From Sphingobium sp. HWE2-09 (GTDB lineage: Bacteria > Pseudomonadota > Alphaproteobacteria > Sphingomonadales > Sphingomonadaceae), in the NCBI RefSeq assembly GCF_035989265.1, contig NZ_JAYKZX010000001.1:885001-949000 (forward strand): 64,000 bases of DNA, written 5' to 3'. The translations under genes and the position numbers were made by a program. Of the stretch, positions 43,815 through 64,000 are shown one piece after another. The stretch's first letter is position 1; each line of letters opens with the position of its first letter. A model generated the notes under the pieces. That model was not told where the DNA came from and did not search any database. It worked only from the letters and a program-made list of their open reading frames with translations.

Positions 43815-44429
43815 TCAATCGATGCCGTTGAGGAATATATTCGTCACCAGTTCGGCATGCCGCAGCATCTGCGTCTCCGTCATCGGTGGTTCGCCAAAGA
43901 GAAGGCGTCGCTGCCATTCACCAAAGGCCATTGTCACGAACTGGGTCGCCAACTCGCGGGATCGGTCTTTAGCGACGCCGTGGCTTTCCAATATGCTCGC
44001 AACCGGGGCGATCTGATACCGTTCGAACTGGATACGCGCGATCTGGCGCAACTCTTCGAAGGTGCCGCCTTCGCGATAGATCAGGGCGCTGATGCGCAGC
44101 GCCTGCGGCACGAATAACTGCCGTTGCATCGCGTTGGCGTAATTTACCAAGCCTTCGCGAAGTCCCATCTCATGAGATGGCGGCACGGGTTGAATCTGGC
44201 GGCCGGAAAATTCGAGACAGGCTTCGAACAAGGCGAGCTTGTCGGGATAGTAATTATAGAGTGTGCGGCTGGAAACCTGGGCCTTCTCCGCAATGTCCCG
44301 CAGCGACGCGCCATGAAAGCCGGTGCGCGCAAATTCTTCCAGGGCCGTGACGATCAGCCCCCATCTTTTTTGTTCGGCTTCCTGCGCGCTGGGTCGGCCT
44401 GCGCGACGCTTGGGCGCTGCTATGCTCAT
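43815..44429 (-). CDS. TetR family transcriptional regulator
   Basis: This 204-residue regulator has the TetR helix-turn-helix near residues 20-66 (ALEEFARTGFHGASLRDIAE, then KAQVSSRTLYNYYPDKLALF). An unspecific all-helical ligand domain follows. The start at 44429 agrees with the basic N-terminal tail. It is divergent from the BVMO gene across 120 bases containing a strong promoter and a palindromic operator, so it should repress that gene and probably itself until a ligand binds. Confidence 0.9.
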   Translation of the reverse strand: MSIAAPKRRAGRPSAQEAEQKRWGLIVTALEEFARTGFHGASLRDIAEKAQVSSRTLYNYYPDKLALFEACLEFSGRQIQPVPPSHEMGLREGLVNYANAMQRQLFVPQALRISALIYREGGTFEELRQIARIQFERYQIAPVASILESHGVAKDRSRELATQFVTMAFGEWQRRLLFGEPPMTETQMLRHAELVTNIFLNGID

Positions 44430-44474
44430 TTCGGACCCTTTTGCAGATAGATTGGATGACGGCAAGCGGGGCGG

Positions 44475-44503
44475 TTGACCTATTACACGTACGACTGTAA
44501 TTA
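44475..44503 (+). promoter_or_regulatory. Promoter with palindromic TetR-type operator
   Basis: TTGACC (44475-44480), a 17-base spacer and TAATTA (44498-44503) form a good sigma-70-like promoter reading toward the BVMO. A perfect inverted repeat, ATTACA (44482-44487) and TGTAAT (44496-44501) with eight bases between, covers the spacer and the -10 box. That is the expected place for a TetR repressor site. Confidence 0.7.
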
Positions 44504-44549
44504 ACGTATGAAGATTCGGCGACAGTCCGAATGAATATGGAGACAGAGG

Positions 44550-46544
44550 ATGCAGGATATGAACTCCGCCCGTCCCAACGCCGACGACGGCGCGCTTGAT
44601 GCGGCCATTGATGGTCTGGATCCCGTCCTGGCGCTGATGGCGTTGGTGCAGATCACGGGCGATCGCACGTTGATCAATCGCTACTGGAACGACATCGACG
44701 GTCGGCAGGAAGGGGTTGTCGAAGCATTCCAGGACATAAACGCTCATGAGGCGCGCGAACCGATCAATCCGGCGATCGCGAGCGAAATCCGCGAAAGTCT
44801 GCGCGCGGCCGTCAGCGCTGGCAAGGCGCCGGTCATGCCGCAAATCGACATGCCGATGTTCCGCAAGATGTCGCGCCTGCTGCTGGGCAAGGACTTTCCT
44901 GAAATGTCGGTCGATGTCGCCTTCCAGCATGGCGGTTTCACTCGCGATACGCGGGTACGCGCGGCAAAGGACGTGCCGCCCGCCGATTTTAAGGTGATTG
45001 TCGTTGGTGCCGGCATGATGGGCATCAATGCCGCGATCAAGCTGCAGCAGGCGGGTTTCGACTATACGATCCTGGAAGCAATGGACCAGGTCGGCGGGAA
45101 CTGGCTGACCAACACCTACCCGGGCGCAGCCGTCGATACGCCGAGCCGGGTCTATTCCTTCTCGTTCGAGCCGAATGCATCCTGGACCCAGTTTTTCCCC
45201 CGTGGTCCTGAATTCCTCTCCTATCTCGATCGCGTGACCGACAAATATAACCTGCGGGATCGGATCAACTTCGGGACGCGCGTCGAGGGCGCCGAGTGGG
45301 ACGAGGCGCGCAAGCTGTGGACCGTGAAATCCGTGCGTGACGGCAAGGCTGAAACGCAGGAATGCAATATCCTGATCATGGCGGTGGGGCCGAACAACAA
45401 CCCCAATTATCCGGATGTCAAAAATCTGAGCGCGTTCAAAGGTCCGGTGATCCATTCAGCGGCATGGGACAGTGCGGTCGACCTGACGGGCAAGAAGGTC
45501 GTATTGGTTGGGACTGGTTGCTCCGGCGTGCAGGTATCGACCGCGATCGCCGACAAGGTCGGCGAGTTGGTCATCGTTCAGCGCCAGAATGAATATATCA
45601 TCCCCAACCCCCAGGCCCATGCCCCGATCGACGAACTGGAGCGGACCGCGATGGAGCGCATTCCGTTCGTCGTGAACTGGAAGCGGTTGCAGAGCCTTGA
45701 GAGCCAGATGGGCGACATGCACGGCATGGTCATGAAGGATGAGGACTATGCCGCGAAGACCGGCGGGTTCGGGCCGATCAACGATGGCATGAAAATGTAC
45801 GCCAATGCCTATCTCAAGAGCCATTTCCCCGACGATCCGGGCATGGTGGCGATGCTGACGCCCGACTTCCCGGTGTTCGCCAAGCGTCCTATCCTCGATT
45901 GCGGCTTCTACGACACGCTCAAGAAGCCCAACGTTTCGATCGTTCGGGGGCAGCTTGCCGAGGCGGATGAAAAGGCGGTGATCCTGGCTGACGGGACGCG
46001 GATCGAATGTGATGTGCTGCTACTATCGACCGGCTATAATCTGCACTTCGGGCGCCAGTTCGACATTCGCGGGACCGGCGGCCAGACGCTGAAGGAAGCC
46101 TTCGAACCGCATCCGTTCAGCTATGAAGGCATGTTGATCACGGGCTTTCCCAACTTCGTGTTCATGGGTGCGCCCTACAGCTATCTTGTGGCCAATCATG
46201 CGGTGGTGAGCGAGCAGCAGACCCATTATATTATCGAATTGCTGCAATGGATGGTGGACGACCATCTTGCTTCGTTCGACGTGACGCCAGAGGCCACCAA
46301 AGCCTTTGTCGATGACGTGGATGCCGAACTGCAGAAAACCGCATGGGTCCAGCATGGCAGCGCTGGCGGTTATTATCGCGACAAAGGCGGCGACGGCAAG
46401 AAGAAGGTCATTCTGGCGATACCGCGCCACAATTCCCGAATCTGGCACGATCTGCGCTCTCCACGGGAGGAGGATTTCAACATCATAGTGCGTGAAGACG
46501 CCGCCGCCCCCGCTGTTCGCCAGATGGAAATGCTGACGATCTGA
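44550..46544 (+). CDS. Baeyer-Villiger monooxygenase, HAPMO-like
   Basis: This 664-residue flavoprotein has an N-terminal extension of about 140 residues, as in 4-hydroxyacetophenone monooxygenases. The FAD Rossmann motif VVGAGMMGINAA follows, then the BVMO fingerprint in the form FKGPVIHSAAW and the NADPH motif VLVGTGCSGVQ. It would insert one oxygen from O2 next to a ketone using NADPH. The last His-to-Trp part of the fingerprint lacks the usual following Pro or Asp, as it does in several HAPMO-type enzymes. It is the first gene under the TetR-controlled promoter. Confidence 0.9.
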   Translation: MQDMNSARPNADDGALDAAIDGLDPVLALMALVQITGDRTLINRYWNDIDGRQEGVVEAFQDINAHEAREPINPAIASEIRESLRAAVSAGKAPVMPQIDMPMFRKMSRLLLGKDFPEMSVDVAFQHGGFTRDTRVRAAKDVPPADFKVIVVGAGMMGINAAIKLQQAGFDYTILEAMDQVGGNWLTNTYPGAAVDTPSRVYSFSFEPNASWTQFFPRGPEFLSYLDRVTDKYNLRDRINFGTRVEGAEWDEARKLWTVKSVRDGKAETQECNILIMAVGPNNNPNYPDVKNLSAFKGPVIHSAAWDSAVDLTGKKVVLVGTGCSGVQVSTAIADKVGELVIVQRQNEYIIPNPQAHAPIDELERTAMERIPFVVNWKRLQSLESQMGDMHGMVMKDEDYAAKTGGFGPINDGMKMYANAYLKSHFPDDPGMVAMLTPDFPVFAKRPILDCGFYDTLKKPNVSIVRGQLAEADEKAVILADGTRIECDVLLLSTGYNLHFGRQFDIRGTGGQTLKEAFEPHPFSYEGMLITGFPNFVFMGAPYSYLVANHAVVSEQQTHYIIELLQWMVDDHLASFDVTPEATKAFVDDVDAELQKTAWVQHGSAGGYYRDKGGDGKKKVILAIPRHNSRIWHDLRSPREEDFNIIVREDAAAPAVRQMEMLTI

Positions 46545-46567
46545 CGCGCTTTTCATTCAACTAATAT

Positions 46568-46597
46568 GCCGCGCACGCGCATCCCGCGCTGCGCGGC
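46568..46597 (+). other. Strong hairpin between BVMO and the next gene
   Basis: GCCGCGCA (46568-46575) pairs perfectly with TGCGCGGC (46590-46597). There is no T-run after it, so it is not a classical terminator. It may set the level of downstream transcript or protect an mRNA end. Confidence 0.45.
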
Positions 46598-46623
46598 GGC
46601 CAGGAACCATGGGAGGTTCGATC

Positions 46624-47691
46624 ATGTTACGTGAACTCGCCGAGAATTTCCGCCCCGTTGGTCAACCGCAACTGATCGAGAATGCGTATAGCAGCGACCA
46701 GCATGCCCGGCTGCTGAAGGTGGTCCGTGACAATGGACCATGGCCGCTCATCATGGCCGAAAATTTCAGCACGCCCGAAGAGGTGATCGCCACCACGTCG
46801 GCGGCTGGCAAGCAGTTGCCCGAAGGCGTGAAGCTGACATGGGACATGATCGGACTGAACCCGGTATTTCGCGGATATCTGGCGCGTGGGGGCACATGCT
46901 TCTACCCCGAGCTGGAAGATTGCTATTATAATTCGCATTTCCTCGAACTCGTTCGCAACTATTATGATTGCCAATATGCGGAACCGGAAACCTTCCTGTT
47001 CAACATTCAGGGACCAACGCCGATAGGCGGGCCGCCGCATCTCGACGGCACGGTCTTTCGCGGCATGACGATGGACGACACGCCGCTCTGGCTGTTGCTG
47101 ACCATGGCTAAGTCCTGCTTGTTCAACCACTGGCGGTCGAAGAAGGGCCAGGTCATCGCCTGGTATTATAACGGGAAAATCGGCGGCGGATTCAATTGCT
47201 GGCCCAATGGGCCGAGCGCCGAGCCGATGCAGATCAATGCGCCGATGTGGGGCCGTGCCGTCGTCGTGGAAAACGAGATGATGTTCCATCACGGTCAGGC
47301 AACCGGGCCGGTCGCGCTGCGCAAACCGCAAGGGATGGACATCACCACCACCTTCGGCGCGGACCCGGACGATGCGACGGGCTGGCAGTTGGAGACGTTC
47401 GGCAAGGTCATCCAGAAAGTGCCGGAGCCGGAGATGCGCTTCCTGGTGCATTGGGGCGCGCGGCTGTTCAAGGACATGGCCGATTTCAAGCGGACCTATG
47501 AGCATAGCGACGATATCAACGCGGACATGGCGATCAACATGCTGATCGACGACATGAAAAAGCGCGGCATCCAGTTCGAGGTGCCGACCGATCCGCTGCA
47601 CGACAACGCCTTCGTGGGCCTGTTGGCGGGCGTCTATGATATTGGCGGCCCGGCCAATATCCCGGCGGACGCGCTGGACGAGGCCGCCTGA
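46624..47691 (+). CDS. Unrecognised protein, possible Fe(II)-dependent oxygenase
   Basis: This 355-residue cytoplasmic protein matched no family I could name. It contains PPHLDGTVFRG with His139-x-Asp141, a later His pair in MFHHGQATGP (222-223), and Arg233. That order and spacing is like the 2-His-1-carboxylate facial triad and the Arg of Fe(II)/2-oxoglutarate oxygenases such as the phytanoyl-CoA group. Trp/Tyr-rich segments such as GQVIAWYYNGKIGGGFNCW surround it. The start at 46624 is chosen because GGGAGG lies just before it; an earlier ATG at 46609 overlaps that site. It follows the BVMO by 80 bases, so it probably works in the same pathway. Confidence 0.8.
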   Translation: MLRELAENFRPVGQPQLIENAYSSDQHARLLKVVRDNGPWPLIMAENFSTPEEVIATTSAAGKQLPEGVKLTWDMIGLNPVFRGYLARGGTCFYPELEDCYYNSHFLELVRNYYDCQYAEPETFLFNIQGPTPIGGPPHLDGTVFRGMTMDDTPLWLLLTMAKSCLFNHWRSKKGQVIAWYYNGKIGGGFNCWPNGPSAEPMQINAPMWGRAVVVENEMMFHHGQATGPVALRKPQGMDITTTFGADPDDATGWQLETFGKVIQKVPEPEMRFLVHWGARLFKDMADFKRTYEHSDDINADMAINMLIDDMKKRGIQFEVPTDPLHDNAFVGLLAGVYDIGGPANIPADALDEAA

Positions 47692-47814
47692 GCGCGCCTT
47701 GGCGCCCAACAGATAGTCTTTGGCAGACAAGCGCATCGCGGCCGTGCGCGAACCGATGGAATCCAGGCGAGATCCTGATTGCCCGAGCAAGTATCGCCCA
47801 GGGGGAGGTATGAC

Positions 47815-48173
47815 ATGATCCAGAGCCCCGATCTTTCGGGCAAGGTCGCGCTCGTTACCGGCAGCAGTCGAAGCATCGGGCGTGATCGCCCAGTGGCTGG
47901 CCACGGCAAGGGCCACCGTCGTGGTGACGGCGCGGTCGCTCCATACGCCTGCTTCGGCTGCGCGCGCAGGCGCGTCGGTGACGGTATCGGATCGGCGTGA
48001 CGCCCGAGCAGGCGGGCCAAACCATTTTGGATGGCATCGCGGCCGGTGATTTCTGGATATCGACGCATCCCGAAACGACCGCGCAGATCGCAAAGGGACG
48101 ATCGGAATATCTGGCGACCCTGGCACGACCGATGCTCGCCGAGCAGGCGCGGGCTTTGGTCGAAGATATTTGA
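47815..48173 (+). pseudogene. Short-chain dehydrogenase (SDR), internally deleted
   Basis: A good SD sequence (GGGGGAGG) precedes ATG 47815, which opens a normal SDR N terminus (LSGKVALVTGSSRSIGR). A one-base shift near 47880 moves the frame. The N-terminal part goes on as IAQWLATARATVVVTARSL to about 47995, then jumps to an SDR C terminus (VTPEQAGQTILDGIAAGDFW and LARPMLAEQARALVEDI) ending at 48173. About 150-200 codons with the Ser-Tyr-Lys active site are missing. It marks a lost dehydrogenase step in the BVMO cluster. Confidence 0.75.
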
Positions 48174-48217
48174 AGCAGGCATCACGCGCCGACGGACTGC
48201 AAAACAGGAGACTATCC

Positions 48218-48640
48218 ATGGCAACCCAGATACCTCACGCAAAAACGCTGGATACCGACTTCATGTTCACCAAACTTCAGGTCAAGGATCTGGAGAAGGC
48301 GGCGACTTTCTACAGTTCGGTCCTTGGTCTTGTCGAAATGCATCGCGTCGAGGCGGAGATTACGGGACGTCCGGTCAGCGAAGTCATATTCATGCCGACC
48401 TACGAAGGTGGCCCGATGTTCATCCTGGCCCGGTTCCAGGATATTCAGGCGCCCGCGGCCAACGAATTGATCCTGGGTTTTGCCACCAAGGATATTGCAG
48501 GACTCCTGTCACGGGCGGAACAGGCAGGCGGAAAGGTCCTGGAAGCCGCGCGCGAGGTTCCGGGGATGGGGGGCATGCAGGTCGCCTTCATTGCCGACCC
48601 GGAAGGCCATGTGTTGCAGCTGAGCCAGCCCGGCGGCTGA
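48218..48640 (+). CDS. VOC family protein (glyoxalase/dioxygenase fold)
   Basis: This 140-residue protein has one VOC module: FTKLQVKDLEKAATFYSSVL at the start and FIADPEGHVLQLSQP at the end, where the last Glu ligand of many glyoxalases is Gln in this copy. VOC proteins bind a metal and act on C-C or C-S bonds, or bind ligands. Start 48218 follows GGAG. It lies 45 bases after the deleted SDR gene. Confidence 0.85.
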   Translation: MATQIPHAKTLDTDFMFTKLQVKDLEKAATFYSSVLGLVEMHRVEAEITGRPVSEVIFMPTYEGGPMFILARFQDIQAPAANELILGFATKDIAGLLSRAEQAGGKVLEAAREVPGMGGMQVAFIADPEGHVLQLSQPGG

Positions 48641-48770
48641 TGGCTGTTCAGAGAAAGCGTGTGCGGCTTTCAGTCATTTACAGGCGCGCGTCGGGTGGGC
48701 CGTCCCGACGGATCGGGGCGAGCATGCTTTGCCCACCGCTATTTGTCATCTGTCATAAGGAGATTTGGTT

Positions 48771-49160
48771 ATGACCGTTACCGCTTTTGCCTACGCAAAG
48801 ACCGTCGTTTCAGATAGCGATGCGCTTACGTCTTTCTATACCGGCGCGCTTGGGTTCACCGCCGCCATCCGTATCGAGGAAGGGGAAGGCGACGACAGGT
48901 TCGTCGAAAATTTCCTGTCGACAGGGGCGGGGGCGGCCCCGCAGCTTGTGCTGATAAGCTATGCCAACCGCACGGCGCCTGCCGTCGGGGAATCGATCGT
49001 CGCGATAATGGTCGATGATGTTGACGAGACGCTGGCGGCGATCGAACGGGCCGGGGGGCGGACGACGGTCCCGGCCTTCGATGTGCCTGAACACCAGATG
49101 CGTATGGCCTATGCTGCAGATCCCGAAGGCCACAGCATCGAATTGATGAAAATCGGCTAG
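48771..49160 (+). CDS. VOC family protein (glyoxalase fold)
   Basis: This 129-residue, single VOC module runs from AYAKTVVSDSDALTSFYTGA to AYAADPEGHSIELMKIG, the latter with the metal-ligand Glu in place. It differs from the preceding VOC protein enough to suggest a different substrate. Start 48771 has AAGGAG at the right distance. It is followed 110 bases later by the APH-fold gene. Confidence 0.85.
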   Translation: MTVTAFAYAKTVVSDSDALTSFYTGALGFTAAIRIEEGEGDDRFVENFLSTGAGAAPQLVLISYANRTAPAVGESIVAIMVDDVDETLAAIERAGGRTTVPAFDVPEHQMRMAYAADPEGHSIELMKIG

Positions 49161-49269
49161 CGCAGGATGCCCCGGCCAGATGGTGCGGGCTACGGTAAAA
49201 GTGGCGAAATCCACGGCCCTGCACATGTTTATTCTGCGCGTAGCCCGTTCTTTTAGGGAAAGAAGGTTG

Positions 49270-50832
49270 ATGATGACGGAGCTTTCAGGACGTCCCGCGA
49301 CGCGATGTCAGGTTATCGCCGATCATGGCGCAGCCGTGACGTCCGGAACCACGGCGGGTGGCTCGGTCCTTCATCACCTGCCAAAAGGTACGCTGGTGGT
49401 TTGCGCGGAACGGTCAAGCAGCGAGACGGGCGGTGACCGGATGCGCATTGCCAGCCCTGGCGGATGGGTCGATGCCGCTGCGCTGCAACCGGCCGCTGCC
49501 GTCACCACCGCGCTGCTGGATTATGAAATATTTCTGGAGCGGCACCGCTGCGTTTCGCCCGGCGATCAGTATGGGCTGCCATTTCCGATAGATCTTGATG
49601 GCCTTCGCGAGGCTGGGCCGGATTTCCTGACGGCGGCGTTTCGCGCGTCCGGCGTCATGTCGGCGGACAATCATGTCACGGATATCGTGGCGCTCGACAA
49701 ACTGGACATTCGCGGCGCATCGGAAAACGGCTTGTTGACCCTGGCCTATGCGCGCGACGAGCCGGATTTGCACACCGATTTGTTCGTAAAGTTTCCACCG
49801 ACGGACGTTCATCACAAATATGGGCTGCTGCGTTTGTCCGATGGTGAGATCACGATAGGCCGCCTGTCGCGCGAGCGGCAGCTTCCGGTAACGGTCAGCC
49901 AATATTATTTCGGCGATTACAGTGCCCATACCGGCAATTATATATTGATAACCGGGCGGGTGCCGTTTGGCGTCGACCCTGTAGAGCCAGCCTATCGCAA
50001 GGGATATGATCATGATGTCCCGCATATCGAGGAGCATTATGAAGTCCTCACGCGCAATCTGGCTCGCCTGGTAGGGGCGCATAAGCGCGGTGACCTGGGA
50101 CTGGATATTGAGGAGATTTTTCCGTTCGCCAAGGCGGCCCGCGATTTCGATCCTATTTTGGATGTGGAGCAGCGACTGGACAAATTGATCGATTTTATCG
50201 GTCGCATAGCGCCAAGACTTTTCAAGCCTGAAGTAACGACGCCGTCGTTCCTGAAACAATGGCGGGAGGATGTGCTGTTCGGTCTGGACCATAAGGATCA
50301 GGTGCTGGCCTATCTTCTGTCCGATGCCGATTATACCGGACTGTGCCATATCAACCTGAACGTGGACAATGCCTGGTTCTGGCGCGATGGTTCAGGTCAA
50401 CTCCAGGCGGGGCTGCTGGACTGGGGCGGTGTCGGCCAGGCGAGCCTGGCGCAGGCGATCAGCGGCATGATGATGATGCCCCAACCCGAAAAGCATATCG
50501 CCTTGGTCGATCGGGTGATCGATGTGTTCCTGGAGGAATGCGCGGCGCAGGGTTGCCCGGCGATCGACAGGGCGGAGCTTTATTTTCAATATAAGGCGTC
50601 GATCTATTCGACCGCCATCTGCACATTCGTCACCATTCTTTCGGACGTCGTGCAGATGTTTCCCGAAGATTATTTCGCGTCCATGGACAATCGGATGGAC
50701 GCCCGTCTGCTGGAAACGGGGTTTTACAGCGCGGTGGTGTGGATCGACAACATGCTGCGCGAATGGCTGGACGATCTGACGCCCGGCGATGCATGTCGTC
50801 AGATCGTTGCACGCGCCGTATCGACAGGCTAG
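49270..50832 (+). CDS. APH-fold phosphotransferase-like protein, atypical active site
   Basis: This 520-residue protein has a C-terminal half like aminoglycoside phosphotransferase/choline kinase enzymes. The catalytic-loop region reads CHINLNVDNAWFWRDGSG and the metal region GLLDWGGVGQ. In the usual HxDxxxxN motif the Asp is Asn here (HIN), while the second Asn and the later Asp are kept. That is unusual and could mean loss of kinase activity or a binding role. The first 120 residues have no clear homology. Start 49270 follows AGAAGG. Its end overlaps the convergent AraC gene by four bases. Confidence 0.7.
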   Translation: MMTELSGRPATRCQVIADHGAAVTSGTTAGGSVLHHLPKGTLVVCAERSSSETGGDRMRIASPGGWVDAAALQPAAAVTTALLDYEIFLERHRCVSPGDQYGLPFPIDLDGLREAGPDFLTAAFRASGVMSADNHVTDIVALDKLDIRGASENGLLTLAYARDEPDLHTDLFVKFPPTDVHHKYGLLRLSDGEITIGRLSRERQLPVTVSQYYFGDYSAHTGNYILITGRVPFGVDPVEPAYRKGYDHDVPHIEEHYEVLTRNLARLVGAHKRGDLGLDIEEIFPFAKAARDFDPILDVEQRLDKLIDFIGRIAPRLFKPEVTTPSFLKQWREDVLFGLDHKDQVLAYLLSDADYTGLCHINLNVDNAWFWRDGSGQLQAGLLDWGGVGQASLAQAISGMMMMPQPEKHIALVDRVIDVFLEECAAQGCPAIDRAELYFQYKASIYSTAICTFVTILSDVVQMFPEDYFASMDNRMDARLLETGFYSAVVWIDNMLREWLDDLTPGDACRQIVARAVSTG

Positions 50833-51923
50833 CTTCGATCCGGATCGGCGCGGGGCGGATGACCCCCGCGCCAGACCGAGGGGGAAAGCCCCGTTGCGGC
50901 GCGAAAGGCCCGCGACAGTGCGGTATAGTCCGCATAATTGGTCAGCCGGGCGACTTCGCTGATGGAAATACGTGGATCGGCCAAAAGACGCTGCGCCCTA
51001 TCGATCCGGGCGCGCTGCTTTATGGCGCGCAGCGTCGTGCCCTCGTCGGCCAGCCGCCGATTGAGCGTACCGACGCTGATCGCAAAGCGCGCGGCAAGCA
51101 TCTTTGCCGACGGCAGGCGGGCGCCACGCTCAAGCGCGGATTGGAACACGCCCTCGACCAATTCGACATGCCGCACGCCGAACGACTGCGGCTCGATCGG
51201 GTCGTACGGAAAATGATCGAGCCACGCCTCCAGGTCGGCCGCATTGCGTCGTACCGGACGCTCCAGCAGCGTTGCCGGGAAACGCAGGGCGTTTCTGCCC
51301 GCCTGATGCCGGATCGGGTAGGGCATTAGATGGACGAGCATCTGCCCGATGCCGCGCGGGGAATAATCCATGTCCACCTCGATCACTGCGAGTTTTTCGC
51401 CGATCAGCCAGCCGAACAGGCGACTAAAAGACGACAATCCGGTCAGGTCGGTAAGATAGGCCGCCGCATTTCTGCTGTCGCGAAGCGGGTCCATCACGAA
51501 AATGGCCGATTGCCCGTCAATCTCCAGCCGATGTTGGCCCAGTCGGGGATGCAGCATGGCGACGAAGTCGAGCAGCCGCGCAATGGCTGCGCCCAGGCTG
51601 GTGCAGGTAATGACGCAGTGGCAGAGCATGTCGAACTCGGCCTTCCTGAACGGCAAGCGTCCTTCCCGTCGGCTGGCTTCGCGGTCCAGCGCAGAGACGC
51701 ACAGGGCGTAAAATCGGGCGAAGTCGCCATGCGGAATTGGATGATTCCAGCCGTCCTTCAGGATGGTTTCCGTTGGCCAGGGCAGGCCCGCCTCGTCCAG
51801 CAACGGCTGCGCGCATAAGCCATGATCCGCCAACAGGCCCAGCAGTTCCTTCAGGACGGATGCGGAGACGGCCGGATAGGCGGTACGCGTCAGATGCTTG
51901 GCGCTGGTGATTCTTTTTGTCAT
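50829..51923 (-). CDS. AraC-type regulator (OruR/Arabinose_bd group)
   Basis: This 364-residue regulator has an N-terminal effector domain of the Arabinose_bd/OruR type and a C-terminal AraC double helix-turn-helix (about 265-355). In the latter, LAARFAISVGTLNRRLADEG and ISISEVARLTNYADYTALSR are the two recognition units, and FRAATGLSPSVWR closes the domain. It is divergent from the second BVMO across 201 bases and is the likely activator of it. The protein resembles the AraC fragment at the right end of the window. Confidence 0.88.
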   Translation of the reverse strand: MTKRITSAKHLTRTAYPAVSASVLKELLGLLADHGLCAQPLLDEAGLPWPTETILKDGWNHPIPHGDFARFYALCVSALDREASRREGRLPFRKAEFDMLCHCVITCTSLGAAIARLLDFVAMLHPRLGQHRLEIDGQSAIFVMDPLRDSRNAAAYLTDLTGLSSFSRLFGWLIGEKLAVIEVDMDYSPRGIGQMLVHLMPYPIRHQAGRNALRFPATLLERPVRRNAADLEAWLDHFPYDPIEPQSFGVRHVELVEGVFQSALERGARLPSAKMLAARFAISVGTLNRRLADEGTTLRAIKQRARIDRAQRLLADPRISISEVARLTNYADYTALSRAFRAATGLSPSVWRGGHPPRADPDRS

Positions 51924-52124
51924 GACTTTTGATTCAATCCGACATTTTCACCATGGTTGGCAATCGCATAAAGATGGACCGTCGGATCGGCGATGCATTG
52001 CAACGGCAGTGATTGTCGATGGCGAACAGACCCAGGCATCTGGCAGGTCTGCGCACGCCTACTGGCGTAAGATATAATGGCCGCGACATGGCGACCAGTA
52101 AAATAGGTTTTGGAGGGATGGTTC

Positions 52125-53732
52125 TTGTCCACGTCTGACACGGAAACAGTCGATATCGTCATCATCGGCGCTGGGTTTTCAGGACTTTATGCGCTGCACC
52201 GGATGCGCGGGTACAACGTCCTGTGTTTCGAGGCGGGCGACGGTGTCGGCGGCACATGGTATTGGAACCGCTATCCTGGCGCCCGGGTCGATATCCAGAG
52301 CGTGGAATATTCCTACAGTTTCGACAAGGAACTGGAGCAGGAATGGAGTTGGCCGGAATATTTCTCCGGCCAGGCCGAACTGGAACGCTATGCCAATCAC
52401 GTCGCGGATCGCCATGGCTTGCGCGACCGGATCAGGCTGTCGACCCGCGTCATGTCGATGCGGTTCGATGAACCAACCAATCGTTGGCATGTCCGCACCG
52501 ACAAGGGCGACCATGTGATATGCCGATATGTCGTCGCGGCGACCGGAAGCCTGTCTGCGCCCAATACGCCGCCATGGCCGGACCGCGACCTATTCAAGGG
52601 CGAAATCTATCATACGACGCAATGGCCGCGCGATGGCGTCGATCTGGCCGGCAAGCGCGTCGGTCAGATCGGCACGGGATCGACCGGCATACAGCTTGCG
52701 CCGATGCTGGCCGAGCAGGCGGAGCATCTGACGGTCTTTCAGCGCACGCCCGCCTTTGCGATGCCATCGGGCAACCGACCGATGGATGCGGCTTACGAGC
52801 AGGAATGGAAGGCCAATTATCCCGAACGTCGTCAGCAGATGCTGGAAACATATGGCGTGTCGATGGTGCTCAAGGCGCCCGACTTTTGCGCCTATGAATG
52901 CACGCCTGAACAGCAGCAGGATATTTTGGAGAAGGCCTGGACTTCCCAGAGCGCATTTCAGTTGCTTGTGGCTTTCAAGGATATCGCCACTGACGAGCGG
53001 GCCAACGCGCTGGTCGCGGAGTTCGCGCGCGGGAAGATCCGGGATATCGTGAAGGATCCGGCGACAGCCGAACTATTGTGCCCGACGACCTACCCCATCG
53101 GCAGCAAACGACTGTGCATCGAAAACGGCTATTTCGAGATGTTCAACCGGGATAATGTCACGCTCGTCGATGTGCACGCTGACCCGATCGTCGGTTTCAC
53201 CGAGACTGGCCTGCGGACTGCAAATGGTCGCTATGACCTGGACGTTATCGTGACGGCCACTGGCTTCGACGCGATTACCGGTGCGATGGCGCGGATCGAC
53301 ATTGAAGGCGTAGATGGCATGTCGCTTGCGGAAAAGTGGGCGGACGGTCCGACGGTCTGGCTGGGTGCGATGGTCGCGGGGTTCCCCAACCTGCTCATGA
53401 TCCATGGGCCGATGACCCCCGGCGCGCAGGCGCAGATGTTGATGTCGGGCGAATGGCAGGTCGATTTCGTCGCCGACATCATCGAGGAGATGGATCGTGA
53501 TGGTTTATCCCGCATCGATGTGACGACCGAGGCGGAAGGGTGGTGGGCGCAGGAGGTCGACAATTGCTCTCAACTCACGCTCCATCGACTTGCGGACTCC
53601 TGGTACAACGGCAAGAATATCGAGGGCAAACGGGGTGGCTTCATGATCTATGTCGGCGGTTTCCCCCGCTATGTCCAACTGTGCCGGGATGCGGTGCAGA
53701 ACGGGTATAAGGGGTTCGTCCGCTCTGCCTAA
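52125..53732 (+). CDS. Baeyer-Villiger monooxygenase, CHMO-like
   Basis: This 535-residue flavoprotein starts at TTG 52125, seven bases after GGAGGG. The FAD motif VIIGAGFSGLYALHRM is near residue 12. The full BVMO fingerprint FKGEIYHTTQWPRD is near 165, and the second Rossmann motif QIGTGSTGIQLAP near 185. It has no N-terminal extension and so belongs to the cyclohexanone/cyclopentadecanone group, distinct from the HAPMO-like enzyme at 44550. The AraC regulator is encoded divergently. It ends 28 bases before lutC, which runs the opposite way. Confidence 0.9.
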   Translation: MSTSDTETVDIVIIGAGFSGLYALHRMRGYNVLCFEAGDGVGGTWYWNRYPGARVDIQSVEYSYSFDKELEQEWSWPEYFSGQAELERYANHVADRHGLRDRIRLSTRVMSMRFDEPTNRWHVRTDKGDHVICRYVVAATGSLSAPNTPPWPDRDLFKGEIYHTTQWPRDGVDLAGKRVGQIGTGSTGIQLAPMLAEQAEHLTVFQRTPAFAMPSGNRPMDAAYEQEWKANYPERRQQMLETYGVSMVLKAPDFCAYECTPEQQQDILEKAWTSQSAFQLLVAFKDIATDERANALVAEFARGKIRDIVKDPATAELLCPTTYPIGSKRLCIENGYFEMFNRDNVTLVDVHADPIVGFTETGLRTANGRYDLDVIVTATGFDAITGAMARIDIEGVDGMSLAEKWADGPTVWLGAMVAGFPNLLMIHGPMTPGAQAQMLMSGEWQVDFVADIIEEMDRDGLSRIDVTTEAEGWWAQEVDNCSQLTLHRLADSWYNGKNIEGKRGGFMIYVGGFPRYVQLCRDAVQNGYKGFVRSA

Positions 53733-53760: not shown

Positions 53761-54384
53761 CTATAGTCGCGACCCGCGTAGCAGGATCACATGCAGGAAT
53801 TGGGGGCCGTGTGCGCCGCGGACATAGGTGCCCTCGATATCAGTGGTGCCCGATACGCCCGTGACCCAATAATGGGCGCGCGGTTGCAAGCCGATCAATG
53901 GGGCATCCTCCAAATAAGGTACGATGTCCTTCGTAGCCAGCAGCACGATATGATGGAGCGCCAGGAAATTAGGGAGCATCGGTGCGTGCGCTGCCGTTTC
54001 GAATATCAACGATCCGGTTTCCGCTATGCCTTTGCGGGCGACGGCGATGGCGGCGTTCTCATCGGGCGCCGCGTCCGCATGCAGAGTAAATCCGGACCAA
54101 TCGCATCGGGTGAGGTGCTGATCGGGGGACATACAAAGCGTCGGCGGTTGGCCTTGTTCGTCCAAATAACGCGCAACGGCTACCGGGAGATCGTCAATCC
54201 GGGTTATGACGTCATGGCTGGCGCTGACGGACGGCAGGGCCAACCGGGCCAGAAATTCGGCCTCCAACGCGCCTTCATCGACCAATGGTCGTTCAGGCTT
54301 GCCGATCAGGGCATCGGCCTGCGCCTGGATGTCGCCGGGGACATCCCTTTTCAGGCTGGATAGGATCGCATCGCGGGCGCTCAT
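53761..54384 (-). CDS. lutC: L-lactate utilisation protein LutC
   Basis: This 207-residue DUF162/LUD-domain protein corresponds to LutC (YkgG). Conserved segments are AVARKGIAETGSLIFETAAH near 115-134 and the C-terminal GVSGTTDIEGTYVRGAHGPQ. LutABC together form an iron-sulfur L-lactate dehydrogenase that passes electrons to the respiratory chain. The start overlaps the LutB stop by four bases. It is the last gene of the leftward rhamnose operon. Confidence 0.9.
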   Translation of the reverse strand: MSARDAILSSLKRDVPGDIQAQADALIGKPERPLVDEGALEAEFLARLALPSVSASHDVITRIDDLPVAVARYLDEQGQPPTLCMSPDQHLTRCDWSGFTLHADAAPDENAAIAVARKGIAETGSLIFETAAHAPMLPNFLALHHIVLLATKDIVPYLEDAPLIGLQPRAHYWVTGVSGTTDIEGTYVRGAHGPQFLHVILLRGSRL

Positions 54385-55790
54385 GGGCGGTGGTCCTTCT
54401 TATATTGCGCCATGAAGCTATGGCGTGCGGGCTTGGGCAGGTCGCGATATCTGGTCCATCCACCAGCGAGCGGGAGCTGATTGATCCAGCCGCCTTTACC
54501 CATCCATTGCATGGCCCATAGGGCGATCCCGGTGCCAAGGCGATAAAGGGCCGGGCGGCGCGCAACCCATGCCCATATGCCAAGGCCCCAACGCATGGAT
54601 GTAGGTTCCAACCCCTCACGCCAGCTTTTCTCGCGCCAGCCGCGCAGCAGCGTGGGCAGCGGGATGCGGACCGGGCATACTTCCTGGCATTTGCCGTTCA
54701 GCGTACACGCATTGGGCAGGTCGCGGCTCTGCTTCAGCCCGTCGATCGCGGGGGTCAGCACCGATCCCATCGGGCCGGGATAGGTGCCGCCATAGGCGTG
54801 GCCGCCGATCTGCCGGAACACGACGCAATGATTCATGCACGCGCCGCACCGGATGCAGCGCAACATTTCGGCGAGGCCTTCCTCGCGCATCTTCGTGCGT
54901 CCGTTATCGACCAATATGATGTGCATCTGTTCCGGCCCATCCCGGTCGTCGGGACGCTTGGGACCGGTGTAGAAGGTCGTATATTGGGTGAGCGCCGCTC
55001 CGGTAGCCGATCGCGCCAGCATCCGCAGCATGTGGATGGCATGGGGCATGGACGGCACGATCTTTTCGATGCCTGCCGTCACGATATGGATGCGCGGCGG
55101 CACCAGCGATAATTCGGCATTGCCTTCGTTAGTGACGGTGCAGACTGCGCCTGTGTCCGCGATCAGGAAATTGGCGCCCGATATTCCGACATCCGCGCCC
55201 AGCATTTGCGTCCGCAATTCCCGCCGGGCGCTTTCCGCCATGGCCGCGATCGTCTCCTCTTCATGGGGACTGCGATGCTTGGCTTTGAACAGTGCCGACA
55301 CCTGCTCACGCGTCTTGTGCATGGCAGGCCAGATGATGTGGGAGGGGCGTTCATCGGCAAGCTGAATGATATGTTCGGCCAGATCCGTCTCGATCCGGCT
55401 GATCCCGGCCTCCGCCAATGCGTGGGGCAGGCCGATCTCTTCGCCCAGCATCGACTTGGACCGCGCAACGCTCTTTGCCCCGGACGTCTGGCAGATGTCG
55501 ACGACGATCTTGCAGGCCTCGCTTGCGGTGCTTGCCCAATGGACTTTGGCCCCGGCGGCGATCGCGTTGGCCTCGAACTCTTCCAGATAATAGCCCAGAT
55601 GCGCGATCACATGATCCTTGATCGCGGCGGCGCGTGTCCGGGCAGCCTCGAAATCTGGGAAGGCGGCGACGGCGACACCGCGTTTGGCTTCGGCAGTGCC
55701 CGCGGTGCGCTCGACCGCTATCTTCAGGGTCGGGTCGGCCAATGCCGCATCGACGCGTGCGTGGAAGTTATCGGCAGAGGCAGCGTTCAT
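54381..55790 (-). CDS. lutB: L-lactate utilisation iron-sulfur protein LutB
   Basis: This 469-residue protein has the LUD domain (about 70-300, with GISGANFLIADTGAVCTVTN). A ferredoxin-type segment follows with CIRCGACMNHC (312-322) and CTLNGKCQEVCP (362-373) for two [4Fe-4S] clusters. It corresponds to LutB (YkgF). Start 55790 overlaps the lutA stop (ATGA). Its location downstream of L-rhamnose dehydrogenase fits removal of the L-lactate made from rhamnose. Confidence 0.92.
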   Translation of the reverse strand: MNAASADNFHARVDAALADPTLKIAVERTAGTAEAKRGVAVAAFPDFEAARTRAAAIKDHVIAHLGYYLEEFEANAIAAGAKVHWASTASEACKIVVDICQTSGAKSVARSKSMLGEEIGLPHALAEAGISRIETDLAEHIIQLADERPSHIIWPAMHKTREQVSALFKAKHRSPHEEETIAAMAESARRELRTQMLGADVGISGANFLIADTGAVCTVTNEGNAELSLVPPRIHIVTAGIEKIVPSMPHAIHMLRMLARSATGAALTQYTTFYTGPKRPDDRDGPEQMHIILVDNGRTKMREEGLAEMLRCIRCGACMNHCVVFRQIGGHAYGGTYPGPMGSVLTPAIDGLKQSRDLPNACTLNGKCQEVCPVRIPLPTLLRGWREKSWREGLEPTSMRWGLGIWAWVARRPALYRLGTGIALWAMQWMGKGGWINQLPLAGGWTRYRDLPKPARHSFMAQYKKDHRP

Positions 55791-56545
55791 GCCTCTTCCC
55801 CGATCGCGGGACCATCGCCCATGTCGGCGATCAGTTCGATCGCGTGATAGGCGCGCACCTTGCTGCCTTTGCGATGGAGCTTCCCCGCCATGTTCATCAG
55901 GCAGCCCAGGTCGCCGGCCAATAGCAGGTCGGCGCCGCTCGCATCGATCGCGTCCGCCTTTTCGCCGACGATCGCGTTGGAGATAGCGGGATATTTGACG
56001 CAGAAGGTGCCGCCGAAGCCGCAACATGTCTCCTCGTCCGCCAGTGGCGCGAAGGTGAGGCCATCAATGTTCTTCAACAAGCGTCGGGGTTGCGCCTTGA
56101 TCCCCAGTTCGCGCAACCCGGAGCAGCTGTCGTGATAGGTGGCCTTCGCGTCGAGCGTCACCCCCTCGGGGCGCCAGCCGCATATCTCGTCCAGATAGGC
56201 CATGATCTCGAAAGTCTTGTCCGCCACGGCCTGCGCACGCGGCAGCCATTGCGGGTCGTGCTGGAATATTTCGGGATAATGGCAGCGTATCGTTCCGGCG
56301 CAGGAACCCGATGGCACGACCACCGCCGCATAGGGTTCCAGCGCTGCGATCGTCTGCTTCGCCAGTTCCACGGCATGTTGCCGGTCGCCGCTGTTGAGCG
56401 CAGGTTGGCCGCAACAGGTCTGCCCCTCCGGCACGACCACGCTGCAGCCTGCCGCCTCCAGCGCCCGGATGGCGGCAAAGCCGATGCGGGGGCGCATCAG
56501 GTCGACCAGGCAGGTGACGAATAGGGCGACCGGCTTCGTCGTCAT
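55787..56545 (-). CDS. lutA: L-lactate utilisation protein LutA
   Basis: This 252-residue Fe-S oxidoreductase subunit has two CCG (DUF224) motifs: VVPEGQTCCGQPALNSGDRQ near 35-55 and LADEETCCGFGGTFCVKYP near 168-186. Such motifs bind a [4Fe-4S] cluster in LutA (YkgE) and heterodisulfide reductase subunits. It overlaps both neighbours by four bases. Together with LutB and LutC it would oxidise L-lactate to pyruvate. Confidence 0.92.
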   Translation of the reverse strand: MTTKPVALFVTCLVDLMRPRIGFAAIRALEAAGCSVVVPEGQTCCGQPALNSGDRQHAVELAKQTIAALEPYAAVVVPSGSCAGTIRCHYPEIFQHDPQWLPRAQAVADKTFEIMAYLDEICGWRPEGVTLDAKATYHDSCSGLRELGIKAQPRRLLKNIDGLTFAPLADEETCCGFGGTFCVKYPAISNAIVGEKADAIDASGADLLLAGDLGCLMNMAGKLHRKGSKVRAYHAIELIADMGDGPAIGEEA

Positions 56546-57306
56546 TGCAGATTCACATACATCCCGCCATCGACCAGCAGCGCCGCGCCGGTGACATAGG
56601 CGGCCATGTCCGATGCCAGGAATATGATCGGCCCGGCGAGATCTTCGGGCTGGCCAAGGCGGCCGAGCGGGGTGCGGGCTTCCATATATTGGCGCTTCTC
56701 GACGTCGGCCAGATCATCCTTGTTGATCTCGGTCAGGATGGTGCCGGGCAGCACGCTGTTGCAACGGATGCCATATTTGCCCAGTGCGATCGCGGTCGAT
56801 TGCATCAGCGAATGCACGCCAGCCTTCGTCGGGGTGTAATGCGTCTGGAACTCCCCGCCGACCAGCGCGGAGATGGAGGAGACGGCGACGATCGATCCGC
56901 CATGCCCCTGTTTCACCATCTGCTGGGCAGCCGCCTGCACCATGAAATAGGCGCCGTGCAGGTTCACCTTGAATGTCCGCTCGACCACATCGACCGGCAT
57001 GTCGAGGAAGCCGTGGAAGGGGCAGATGCCGGCGTTGCTCACCATCACATCGACCTTGCCGAACGCATCGACCGCGCGCGCCACGAAATCCTGCGCGGTC
57101 TGCGGGTCGGCGACGTCGCCCTTCACCGCGATGGCCCGCTGACCCAGTGCCTCGATCTCGGCCACGCAGCTTGCGGCGGGACCATCGCTGTTCGCATAGT
57201 TGATGACGACATCGGCGCCATGCTGCGCCGCGCCGATGGCGGCGGCGCGGCCGATGCCGGTCGATGCGCCGGTGACGAGGACGGTCTTGCCTTCAAGCAG
57301 CTTCAT
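56542..57306 (-). CDS. L-rhamnose 1-dehydrogenase (SDR family)
   Basis: This 254-residue SDR has TGASTGIGRAAA (cofactor motif, about 10-21), NAGICPFHGFLDMP near 90, the catalytic Ser in VSSISALVGG, and YTPTK (Tyr and Lys). It closely resembles the LRA1 L-rhamnose dehydrogenase of Sphingomonas sp. SKA58 as I recall it, including the NAGICPFH and QTHYTPTKAG segments. It would convert L-rhamnose to L-rhamnono-1,4-lactone with NAD(P)+. It lies between the IclR gene (19-base gap) and lutA (four-base overlap). Confidence 0.85.
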   Translation of the reverse strand: MKLLEGKTVLVTGASTGIGRAAAIGAAQHGADVVINYANSDGPAASCVAEIEALGQRAIAVKGDVADPQTAQDFVARAVDAFGKVDVMVSNAGICPFHGFLDMPVDVVERTFKVNLHGAYFMVQAAAQQMVKQGHGGSIVAVSSISALVGGEFQTHYTPTKAGVHSLMQSTAIALGKYGIRCNSVLPGTILTEINKDDLADVEKRQYMEARTPLGRLGQPEDLAGPIIFLASDMAAYVTGAALLVDGGMYVNLQ

Positions 57307-57325
57307 GGGTGAATTTCCTTGATCA

Positions 57326-58183
57326 TTAGTGCCGCACGGGGCGGCGGGGTGGTTTGACGCCGGGGGTCCAGCCCAGATCGGCGCTGATTTTGTGCGCGGT
57401 GGCGCGGACATCGTCGCTCAACGCGGCCATGCGATCATCGTCCATATATTGGGCGGCGCTCGACAGGCTGATAGCAGCGACGATCGCGCCCGATGCATCG
57501 CGGATCGGCGCGGCGACGCAGCGAATCTGATCCTCATTTTCTTCCAGATCGAATGCACGTCCGGCCGCGACATAGCCGCGCATCCGCGCCAGCCATCCGT
57601 CGGGATCGGCGTCATGCGTGCCGTTGGCCCGCTCGCTTTCCAGCATACGGGTCCAGTGCGATTCGGGATCATCGATCAGCAACGCCTTGCCCAGGCCGGT
57701 GGACGTCAGCGGCTGGCGATCGCCTATGCGGCTGCTGATCTCCACGCGGCGGCGGCCGGGGATCTTGTCCAGATACAGCGCCTGATCGCCATCCAGCCGA
57801 CCCAGATGCACCACATCTTCGCTGGCGGCCGCCAGCGTCTCCAGATACGGTCGGGCGATCTGCACCACGTCGGTCTGGCTTTGCGCCAGGAAGCCCAGCT
57901 GCAATAATTTCGGCCCCAGCTGATAGCCCTCGCGCGGCAGGAATGTCAGGAAACCACGCTCCACCATGGCGTTGGCCAGCCTGTGTGTGGTCGATCGGGT
58001 CAGCTTCATCCGTTCCGACAGGTCGGCCAGCTTGATCGGCCCGTCGATCACCTGGTCCAGCAAATCCAGGCCACGTTGAAGCGTTTGCGAGCCGGAAGCC
58101 TTGGATGGTTCCGCCTTTGCCTTTGCCTCCGGCGCCAAAATTTCCGGCACGTCCGATTCTGGGTTTGACGTTTTCTGTCTCAT
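57326..58183 (-). CDS. IclR family transcriptional regulator
   Basis: This 285-residue protein has a winged helix-turn-helix (about 30-95; TLQRGLDLLDQVIDGPIKLA and LTRSTTHRLANAMVERGFL) and an IclR effector domain (about 105-275; EDVVHLGRLDGDQALYLDKI, RIGDRQPLTSTGLGKALL). IclR proteins often sense the acid intermediates of sugar pathways. It is the first gene of the leftward operon and faces the rightward dehydratase operon across 179 bases, so it is the likely regulator of both halves of the rhamnose block. Confidence 0.9.
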   Translation of the reverse strand: MRQKTSNPESDVPEILAPEAKAKAEPSKASGSQTLQRGLDLLDQVIDGPIKLADLSERMKLTRSTTHRLANAMVERGFLTFLPREGYQLGPKLLQLGFLAQSQTDVVQIARPYLETLAAASEDVVHLGRLDGDQALYLDKIPGRRRVEISSRIGDRQPLTSTGLGKALLIDDPESHWTRMLESERANGTHDADPDGWLARMRGYVAAGRAFDLEENEDQIRCVAAPIRDASGAIVAAISLSSAAQYMDDDRMAALSDDVRATAHKISADLGWTPGVKPPRRPVRH

Positions 58184-63338: not shown

Positions 63339-64000
63339 TTACTGCATATGCTGTTCCCGCCAGGCGGAAGGGGTCTGACCCGTCCATTGATGGAAGGCGC
63401 GCCGAAACGCGCCCGTATCGCTGTAACGGGTCCGTCGGCCGACCTCCGTAATTGTCAGCCGCGGGTCGGTGAGCAGCTGACAGGCGAGGGTAAGCCGTGC
63501 CTGCGCCTTGATCTGCGCAAGCGTCGTATTTTCCGCCGTCAGCCGGCGCTTGAGCGTCGCGACGCTGATGCCGAACTGGCTGGCCAGTCGCGCCGCCGAT
63601 GCAGGCGTTTCTCCGCTGGCCAATGTCGCGCTGAACAAATGGGCGATGCGCTCCGACAGGGGGGCATCCTTCGATTGTGCAAGGGCCAGGTCGAACGGGA
63701 ATCGTTCGAGCAGATGGTCAAGTTCAAAGGCGCTGCGGACGATCGGCTGGTCCAGATATGATGCGGCAAAGCCTATGCTGTTTTCCGGCGCGCCGTGCCG
63801 AACCGGGCAGGGCAGCAGATAGGACACAGTGCGCTCATGCAGCAGCGGCGGGTAGCGCATGGCGGCACCCAGTAACGCGATGTCTTCGCCGATCAGCCAC
63901 CCGAACAATCGATGATAGGTCGATAGGCCGGTGAGGTCCGATAGATAGGCGCAGGCGTTCCGCACCCGCCGGACCGTGGGCATGGTAAGTTTGGCGACGC
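63339..64000 (-). CDS. AraC-type regulator, C-terminal part (cut by window edge)
   Basis: About 220 residues are visible. Part of an Arabinose_bd/OruR-type effector domain (ACAYLSDLTGLSTYHRLFGW, SYLLPCPVRHGAPENSIGF) is followed by an AraC helix-turn-helix pair (LASQFGISVATLKRRLTAEN, LTITEVGRRTRYSDTGAFRR), ending at 63339. The frame is open to the right edge, so the N terminus lies outside. It resembles the AraC protein at 50829. It is convergent with RhaT by 30 bases, so a role in rhamnose control is uncertain. Confidence 0.85.
   Translation of the reverse strand, partial: VAKLTMPTVRRVRNACAYLSDLTGLSTYHRLFGWLIGEDIALLGAAMRYPPLLHERTVSYLLPCPVRHGAPENSIGFAASYLDQPIVRSAFELDHLLERFPFDLALAQSKDAPLSERIAHLFSATLASGETPASAARLASQFGISVATLKRRLTAENTTLAQIKAQARLTLACQLLTDPRLTITEVGRRTRYSDTGAFRRAFHQWTGQTPSAWREQHMQ

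Follow-up and report, generated by a model that had tools for sequence, protein, structure and literature searches.

Among the closest described systems is the pdc cluster of the sphingomonad Caenibius tardaugens, for which PMC12239570 describes a type I Baeyer-Villiger monooxygenase (BVMO, EGO55_13845), a luciferase-like monooxygenase and TetR and LuxR regulators, and reports orthologues of EGO55_13845 with 71-79% identity in two other sphingomonads. In mycobacteria, the review PMC5962712 names M. neoaurum ATCC 25795 as a strain with a homologous C-19+ steroid cluster. For Sphingomonadaceae, a passage of a 2021 review (PMC8399759) gives the enzymes that degrade the bile-acid side chain as unknown and counts their elucidation as a key aspect. 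The tomato Sphingobium paper identified glycosidases, 3β-hydroxysteroid dehydrogenases and a Δ4-dehydrogenase, and its main text uses 'Baeyer', 'monooxygenase' and 'oxygenase' 0 times. In this study, we analyzed a gene cluster of Sphingobium sp. HWE2-09 located at 43815-53732 of a 64,000-nucleotide stretch of DNA (hereafter the window; contig NZ_JAYKZX010000001.1, here C1, positions 885,001 to 949,000), which corresponds to C1:928815-938732 of the 4.44-Mb genome and contains two BVMO genes (BVMO1 and BVMO2) and a gene for a protein with an H-x-D motif (HxD).

The gene order is TetR(-), BVMO1(+), HxD(+), a ruined short-chain dehydrogenase/reductase (SDR), VOC1, VOC2, APH-fold, AraC(-) and BVMO2(+) (Table 1). 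All genes named in an earlier, sequence-only reading were found there, with intact frames except for the SDR. We propose, with a probability of roughly 0.55, that the BVMO1-HxD cluster belongs to steroid-type catabolism and that BVMO2 serves a separate step of the same repertoire.

BVMO1 and HxD form a conserved gene pair

Relatives of HxD were sought in plasmids (22 records, 7 of which were fetched for HxD), in 298 Sphingomonadaceae genomes sampled from a larger group, and in genome contigs, where the best 80 of 267 related stretches were kept and gave 78 loci. Together with 4 plasmid loci these make up 82 named loci (1.59 Mb). In unannotated loci, genes were called by a script that ranks open frames by codon G+C, and frames beyond the named genes may be wrong. 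HxD was present in 9 of the 298 family genomes, HWE2-09 included, and 16 of the 82 named loci have an HxD protein with at least about 70% identity. Fifteen of these 16 carry a full-length BVMO1 homologue (63-83% identity, 649-664 aa aligned) 28-2156 bp upstream on the same strand, and the sixteenth (L040) carries a BVMO1 fragment only; VOC1-like and APH-like genes stand between or after the pair in many of them. In the 61-row HxD tree, the 11 BVMO1-linked rows (window included) and L040 form one 12-row set (96/86), and a 13-row set (100/100) adds Chol11 (L047), whose HxD is 65% identical and has no BVMO1 nearby. At the genome level, BVMO1 of at least 48% identity was found in 7 of the 298 family genomes, all of them among the 9 HxD-positive ones, and it adjoins HxD in HWE2-09 itself and, at 80-81% identity, in G273, G139 and G189.

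Two further arrangements were recorded. A metagenome-assembled genome titled Klebsiella pneumoniae (L046, contig CAMAXE010000025.1) holds BVMO1 (68%), HxD (70%) and, about 34 kb off, BVMO2 (69%); it is probably mislabelled or mis-binned. Behind an HxD paralogue of Chol11 and of the tomatine degrader RC1 (L073, L011) stand two VOC2-like genes and a BVMO2-like gene (35-37%), which is a parallel pairing of the same families.

A TetR homologue (39-79% identical) adjoins BVMO1 in 12 of the 16 loci. Within the TetR-BVMO1 interval of the window, the palindrome ATTACA-N8-TGTAAT lies directly behind TTGACC. The pattern WTTACA-N8-TGTAAW has a single site in the 4.44-Mb genome, before BVMO1, and 10 sites in the 82 named loci, all before BVMO1; 400 kb of control DNA contained none. 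The core preceding BVMO1 in 15 relatives is exact in 10, has one mismatch in 3, two in L046 and three in L042. From its position and conservation, the palindrome is probably the TetR operator. In TomTYG64 it stands at BVMO1 with no TetR homologue found next to that gene. Such a conserved site makes the inducer, and hence the substrate class, accessible to a simple reporter test.

Steroid-degradation genes around HxD

Genes resembling KstD, KshA, HsaC and HsaF are located 25-136 kb downstream of the cluster on the same contig. They comprise a KstD-like gene (C1:963768), two KshA genes (C1:983422 and C1:1074708; PF19298, 201.5 and 177.8 bits, above cut-off), an HsaC-like gene (C1:1035935) and HsaF (C1:1041529; 564.5 bits, above the NCBIfam cut-off), and are accompanied by CoA-transferase-like genes and an SDR that we take to be IpdF-like. 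Also in this region are a second HxD (41%) and a third BVMO, which is 33.5% identical to BVMO1. At C1:1057061-1063003, the second HxD gene precedes a 775-aa frame and a GH3 gene with 60% identity to a GH3 gene near the corresponding cluster of Sphingobium sp. OAS761. The second HxD is 74% identical to SARO_RS19335 (L165 42165-43280), a 'hypothetical protein' of N. aromaticivorans pNL2, which is encoded a few genes from an HsaF homologue (91%), an annotated acetaldehyde dehydrogenase, a member of the fumarylacetoacetate hydrolase family and an alpha/beta hydrolase.

Strong KshA, defined as E <= 1e-45, a threshold chosen after the list was seen (73 of 298 match at E <= 0.001), occurs in 38 of the 298 family genomes, and all 9 HxD-positive ones belong to these 38; the p of 3.6e-9, like other p values here, is nominal because of the kinship of genomes and loci and the choice of thresholds once the lists had been seen. 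Close BVMO2 (at least 69%) occurs in 8 of the 298, HWE2-09 included; all 8 belong to the same 38 and 5 are HxD-positive. Within about 10 kb around HxD, 30 mycobacterial loci, drawn from close relatives, contain KstD in 27, KshA in 28, SDR2 in 29, a BVMO1-type gene in 9 and SDR1 in 8 cases, and 48 non-mycobacterial loci contain a BVMO1-type gene in 29, SDR2 in 12 and SDR1 in 8. Among 20 control stretches taken from four sphingomonad genomes with HxD, none of them mycobacterial, one contained KstD and none contained KshA, SDR2, BVMO1-type genes or SDR1. About 30 kb of TomTYG64 hold BVMO1-HxD, BVMO2, an annotated 3-ketosteroid-9α-monooxygenase, an extradiol dioxygenase and hydroxysteroid dehydrogenases. 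The view of the sequence-only reading that the cluster is catabolic is supported. The 'cyclic or aryl ketone' that it had suggested as substrate is not supported, as steroid-degradation markers accompany both BVMO1-HxD and BVMO2 at the genome level; the likely substrate is a polycyclic steroid or sapogenin ketone, and the module probably takes part in degrading a steroid of plant or animal origin.

Besides the kinship of genomes and loci, the late choice of thresholds and the make-up of the controls, several results weigh against a steroid assignment. The KstD and HsaC matches reach 499 of 788 and 291 of 450 bits, both under the NCBIfam cut-offs. HxD is missing from 29 of the 38 strong-KshA genomes, and KstD and KshA stand in only 4 and 3 of the 48 non-mycobacterial loci, respectively. 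Fourteen less random stretches, taken around BVMO2 or from the steroid region of HWE2-09, contained BVMO1-type genes in 3, SDR2 in 2 and SDR1 in 0 cases. BVMO1 lies beside HxD in just 4 of the 7 family genomes with BVMO1 of at least 48% identity; in G071 (71%) the two are about 13 kb apart, and in G061 and G230 BVMO1 (50-57%) is elsewhere.

Proteins and layout of the cluster

Table 1. Coordinates of the features in the window (64,000 nucleotides of Sphingobium sp. HWE2-09)
Feature	Position	Strand	Remarks
TetR-family regulator	43815-44429	-	TetR_N PF00440, 52.9 bits; divergent from BVMO1; start codon read
Palindrome ATTACA-N8-TGTAAT	44482-44501	.	TTGACC box ahead (44475-44480); probable TetR operator
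BVMO1, type I BVMO, 664 aa	44550-46544	+	FMO-like, 51.7 bits; both BVMO fingerprints
HxD protein, 360 aa	46609-47691	+	Member of an unnamed family and candidate Fe(II)-dependent oxygenase; H144-x-D146...H227 invariant
SDR1 5' remnant	47802-47938	+	76% DNA identity to OAS761 L036 13356-13494
SDR2 3' remnant	47990-48173	+	Within a 74% DNA match to L036 14967-15639; 75% over 60 aa
VOC1, glyoxalase/VOC fold	48218-48640	+	PF00903, 40.5 bits; 81% to OAS761 VOC1
VOC2	48771-49160	+	PF00903, 45.7 bits; 83% to OAS761 VOC2
APH-fold protein, 519-550 aa	49273-50832	+	Start uncertain, frame open from 49180; no Pfam match
AraC-type regulator	50829-51923	-	Arabinose_bd and HTH_18, 62.1 and 61.2 bits
BVMO2, type I BVMO	52110-53732	+	Start codon uncertain (TTG); phenylacetone/steroid-monooxygenase-like

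The two BVMOs are of different types, as the sequence-only reading had held. BVMO1 has an N-terminal extension of about 145 aa and its best solved relative is steroid monooxygenase (225 bits), whereas BVMO2 matches phenylacetone monooxygenase (1w4x) with 546 bits, steroid monooxygenase (4ap3) with 539 bits and CHMOs with 451 bits at most. The type I fingerprint FxGxxxHxxxW[P/D] is present as FKGPVIHSAAWD at 296 in BVMO1 and as FKGEIYHTTQWP at 156 in BVMO2, and the fingerprint [A/G]GxWxxxx[F/Y]P[G/M]xxxD and two Rossmann motifs were found in both. 'CHMO-like' is therefore not the closest label for BVMO2, since the best solved relatives are the steroid and phenylacetone monooxygenases. The label 'HAPMO-like' for BVMO1 comes solely from the N-terminal extension, set beside the length that we take HAPMO to have.

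The HxD protein has no Pfam or NCBIfam match; its best PDB match (E 0.042) was to an unrelated chain, and the HxD profile had no PDB match. Membership in a named Pfam, NCBIfam or PDB family was rejected for want of a credible match. No description of the HxD family, which has no name, was found in the literature searched, to which subscription papers mostly did not belong, so that one may be in print; the search also covered parts of PMC10653915, PMC8540908, PMC12175502, PMC12882949, PMC12724174, PMC6895838 and PMC9836352, and it gave no match for phytanoyl-CoA dioxygenase combined with steroid degradation. H144, D146 and H227 are conserved without exception in the 61 alignment rows, a likeness at the motif level only. 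Compared with a profile of PhyH proteins from relatives (wider set, frames of 200-500 aa), HxD gave E 0.0027 with both HxD motifs and both distal His in register, and the same run gave E 0.097, 0.21 and 0.56 against the APH, BVMO and KshA profiles. With a wider alignment, E ranged from 0.0005 to 0.015 over 15 master rows (single comparisons), the alignment shown spanning the HxD part only. Three results speak against this likeness: 2 of 100 column-shuffled profiles equalled the HxD-PhyH score, in a test whose PhyH profile had been cleared beforehand of 12 of 27 extracted frames as doubtful; PhyH is not among the Pfam matches up to E 5 for any of the 61 HxD members; and the position of the usual 2-oxoglutarate (2OG)-binding Arg is not invariant. 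The comparison is suggestive of a relation to the PhyH superfamily, not proof of one.

For the APH-fold protein, the profile comparison with PF01636 members gave E 0.0019, aligned around the HxDxxxxN and LDW motifs, and other pairs run beside it gave E 0.014 (HxD-PhyH) to 0.65. The catalytic Asp of HxDxxxxN is replaced by Asn (HxNLNxDN) in 7 of 7 homologues inspected; a non-catalytic ligand-binding role would be a guess. An ecdysteroid-kinase-like identity was rejected, as the profile E of 0.098 against 5 such proteins is at the level of unrelated pairs.

The gene set also occurs outside HWE2-09: TetR, BVMO1, HxD, SDRs, VOC1, VOC2, BVMO2 and APH stand together in Sphingobium sp. OAS761, so the sequence-only reading, which had hinged on such co-occurrence in other genomes, holds in this respect. 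The order in OAS761 (L036, L152) is TetR, BVMO1, HxD, E1α, E1β, lipoyl protein, SDR1, SDR2, VOC1, SDR3, TetR, BVMO1b, SDR4, VOC2, zinc-type oxidoreductase, BVMO2 and APH, with GH78-type and GH3 genes some kb past the cluster. S. quisquiliarum (L044) and Novosphingobium sp. KACC 22771 (L009) share the series HxD-E1α-E1β-lipoyl-SDR1-SDR2, in which E1α, E1β and the lipoyl protein represent a thiamine pyrophosphate-dependent dehydrogenase. The window cluster is without the E1α, E1β and lipoyl genes and retains no remnant of E1/E2, which were likely lost in this lineage. Its DNA between HxD and VOC1 consists of the start of SDR1 followed by the end of SDR2, and therefore a deletion joined two SDR genes; the 'deleted SDR' of the sequence-only reading is indeed broken, but it derives from two genes and not from one. 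Compared with OAS761, the order of BVMO2 and APH is swapped and AraC is additional. The HxD proteins are 89% identical within a DNA block that is 77% identical. On balance, the window cluster appears to be a reduced and remodelled copy of a longer steroid-type catabolic module.

The GC content is 59-60% across 44-54 kb and 63-67% at 40-44 and 54-58 kb, a weak contrast because other parts of the window are even lower (down to 53%). Beyond BVMO2, 53764-57411 (-) holds a LUD-domain gene (PF02589), frames that by eye are LutB/LutA-like, and an SDR scoring 466 bits as L-rhamnose 1-dehydrogenase (cut-off 400); this is possibly an L-rhamnose operon adjoining the cluster. The GH78-type rhamnosidase near the OAS761 copy would fit a rhamnose-bearing saponin substrate. 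An incomplete frame at 63342-63998 (-) resembles by eye the AraC regulator of the cluster.

Possible route, alternatives and known systems

In the route that we propose, a polycyclic ketone (a sapogenin, or a steroid at its side chain or D ring) would release TetR. HxD, acting as a non-haem Fe(II) oxygenase of the PhyH type, would hydroxylate the substrate, and BVMO1 would insert oxygen next to the ketone, yielding an ester or lactone. A hydrolase whose gene lies elsewhere would open it, and the product would enter the 9,10-seco pathway. The absence of an ester hydrolase from the cluster was confirmed for the ten proteins scanned. Possible esterase positions in related clusters are shown by M. 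neoaurum, with an Abhydrolase_3 gene directly before HxD, and by TomTYG64, where about 6 kb separate BVMO2 from an annotated alpha/beta hydrolase. As the SDRs and E1/E2 of the module are missing here, other dehydrogenases would have to stand in, or the route would be partial. BVMO2, beside AraC, would not be an obligate second step; it would add a Baeyer-Villiger reaction of its own to the same steroid repertoire. A tentative extension, which we regard as doubtful, is that HxD proteins are a new non-haem iron oxygenase family of steroid catabolism in sphingomonads, Halieaceae and mycobacteria, and that, joined by BVMO1-type enzymes, SDRs and, where the layout is long, a thiamine pyrophosphate-dependent acyl-transferring dehydrogenase, they cleave the side chain or D ring of a steroid or sapogenin by an undescribed oxidative route. 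If so, the HxD-BVMO1 route could supply missing steps of sphingomonad side-chain degradation. For the side-chain question, a direct genetic handle is offered by an unnamed family found in the company of steroid genes across two phyla, which has a BVMO as its conserved partner and a promoter site of its own.

Among the alternatives, the one that survives best, though unlikely, is that BVMO1 or BVMO2 acts like the BVMO of pdc and converts a progesterone-type C20 ketone to the 17-acetate ester. The best solved relatives, steroid monooxygenase for BVMO1 and phenylacetone/steroid monooxygenase for BVMO2, would suit this, as would the TetR-BVMO pairing described for pdc (PMC12239570) and an HxD paralogue on pNL2 that lies 3 kb from the inferred pdc BVMO homologue Saro_3708. 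However, SARO_RS19410, which was equated with Saro_3708 from gene order and distance, shares only 31% identity with BVMO1 and 28% with BVMO2; no luciferase-like partner was found among the ten proteins scanned, and the HxD, E1 and SDR partners are outside the four pdc genes described in PMC12239570. Orthology with the pdc BVMO was rejected at these identities of 28-31%. The pNL2 paralogue (57%) is located at L010 11983-17535, about 3 kb from a BVMO/TetR pair that appears to be Saro_3708/3709.

It is more improbable that the cluster is a decaying or scavenged island whose remaining genes are unused or serve co-metabolic detoxification only. The SDR1 and SDR2 remnants, the missing E1α/E1β/E2 and a GC content below that of the immediate flanks agree with decay, but all other frames are intact, the promoter palindrome has been kept exactly, and HxD has retained its 89% protein identity to OAS761 in the 77% DNA block; the intact frames, palindrome and HxD identity indicate past selection, not use since the deletion.

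The linkage of BVMO2 to the HxD module bears on whether the two BVMOs act in succession. In the 4 other HxD-positive family genomes with BVMO2, this gene lies at least 415 kb from HxD or on a different contig. Close BVMO2 (at least 63%) was found in 4 of 16 named genomes or records, at about 11 kb from HxD in OAS761 (beside the module), 20 kb in TomTYG64, 34 kb in L046 and 570 kb in TomTYG65. The 8 other genomes or records with HxD and BVMO2 of at least 63% thus fall into 3 with the genes within 35 kb and 5 in which they lie on separate contigs or 415 kb or more from each other. One obligate two-BVMO pathway was rejected on the linkage in only 3 of 8, and the 'successive steps of one pathway' of the sequence-only reading retain weak support from these 3. 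That both BVMOs, HxD, VOC and APH take successive steps of one cyclic or aryl ketone pathway is the least probable of the alternatives, in spite of their co-occurrence in OAS761, the 3 linked cases and the regulator beside each BVMO, given the 5 unlinked cases (including 4 of 4 sampled family genomes), a TetR palindrome at BVMO1 only and surrounding markers of the steroid type.

The preferred reading, steroid-type catabolism with BVMO2 as a separate step, can be set beside four known systems. HxD proteins share the HxD...H pattern with the PhyH superfamily, with 81 residues from D146 to H227, and differ from it in having no HMM match and no invariant 2OG-binding Arg position. Nearly all of BVMO2 aligns with steroid monooxygenase (4aos/4ap3) and phenylacetone monooxygenase (1w4x), at 537-546 bits, and BVMO2 differs in adjoining an AraC-type protein that, from its position, would be its regulator. 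In the mycobacterial C-19+ setting (PMC5962712), M. neoaurum ATCC 25795 carries an HxD-family gene with two KstD-like genes at distances of up to about 10 kb (L080), a locus that we infer to be the C-19+ cluster itself; the mycobacterial HxD proteins are about 45% identical to the window HxD and 65-72% to the second HxD of HWE2-09, and only 9 of the 30 mycobacterial HxD loci have a BVMO1-type gene within 10 kb. Finally, the pdc cluster, as far as it is described in PMC12239570, and the window cluster are alike in belonging to sphingomonads, in having a TetR gene beside a type I BVMO, in lying near steroid clusters and in a ketone-to-ester step, predicted for the window; the window cluster is distinguished by the absence of a luciferase-like monooxygenase and by its additional HxD, VOC and APH genes, joined in its relatives by E1/E2 and SDR genes.

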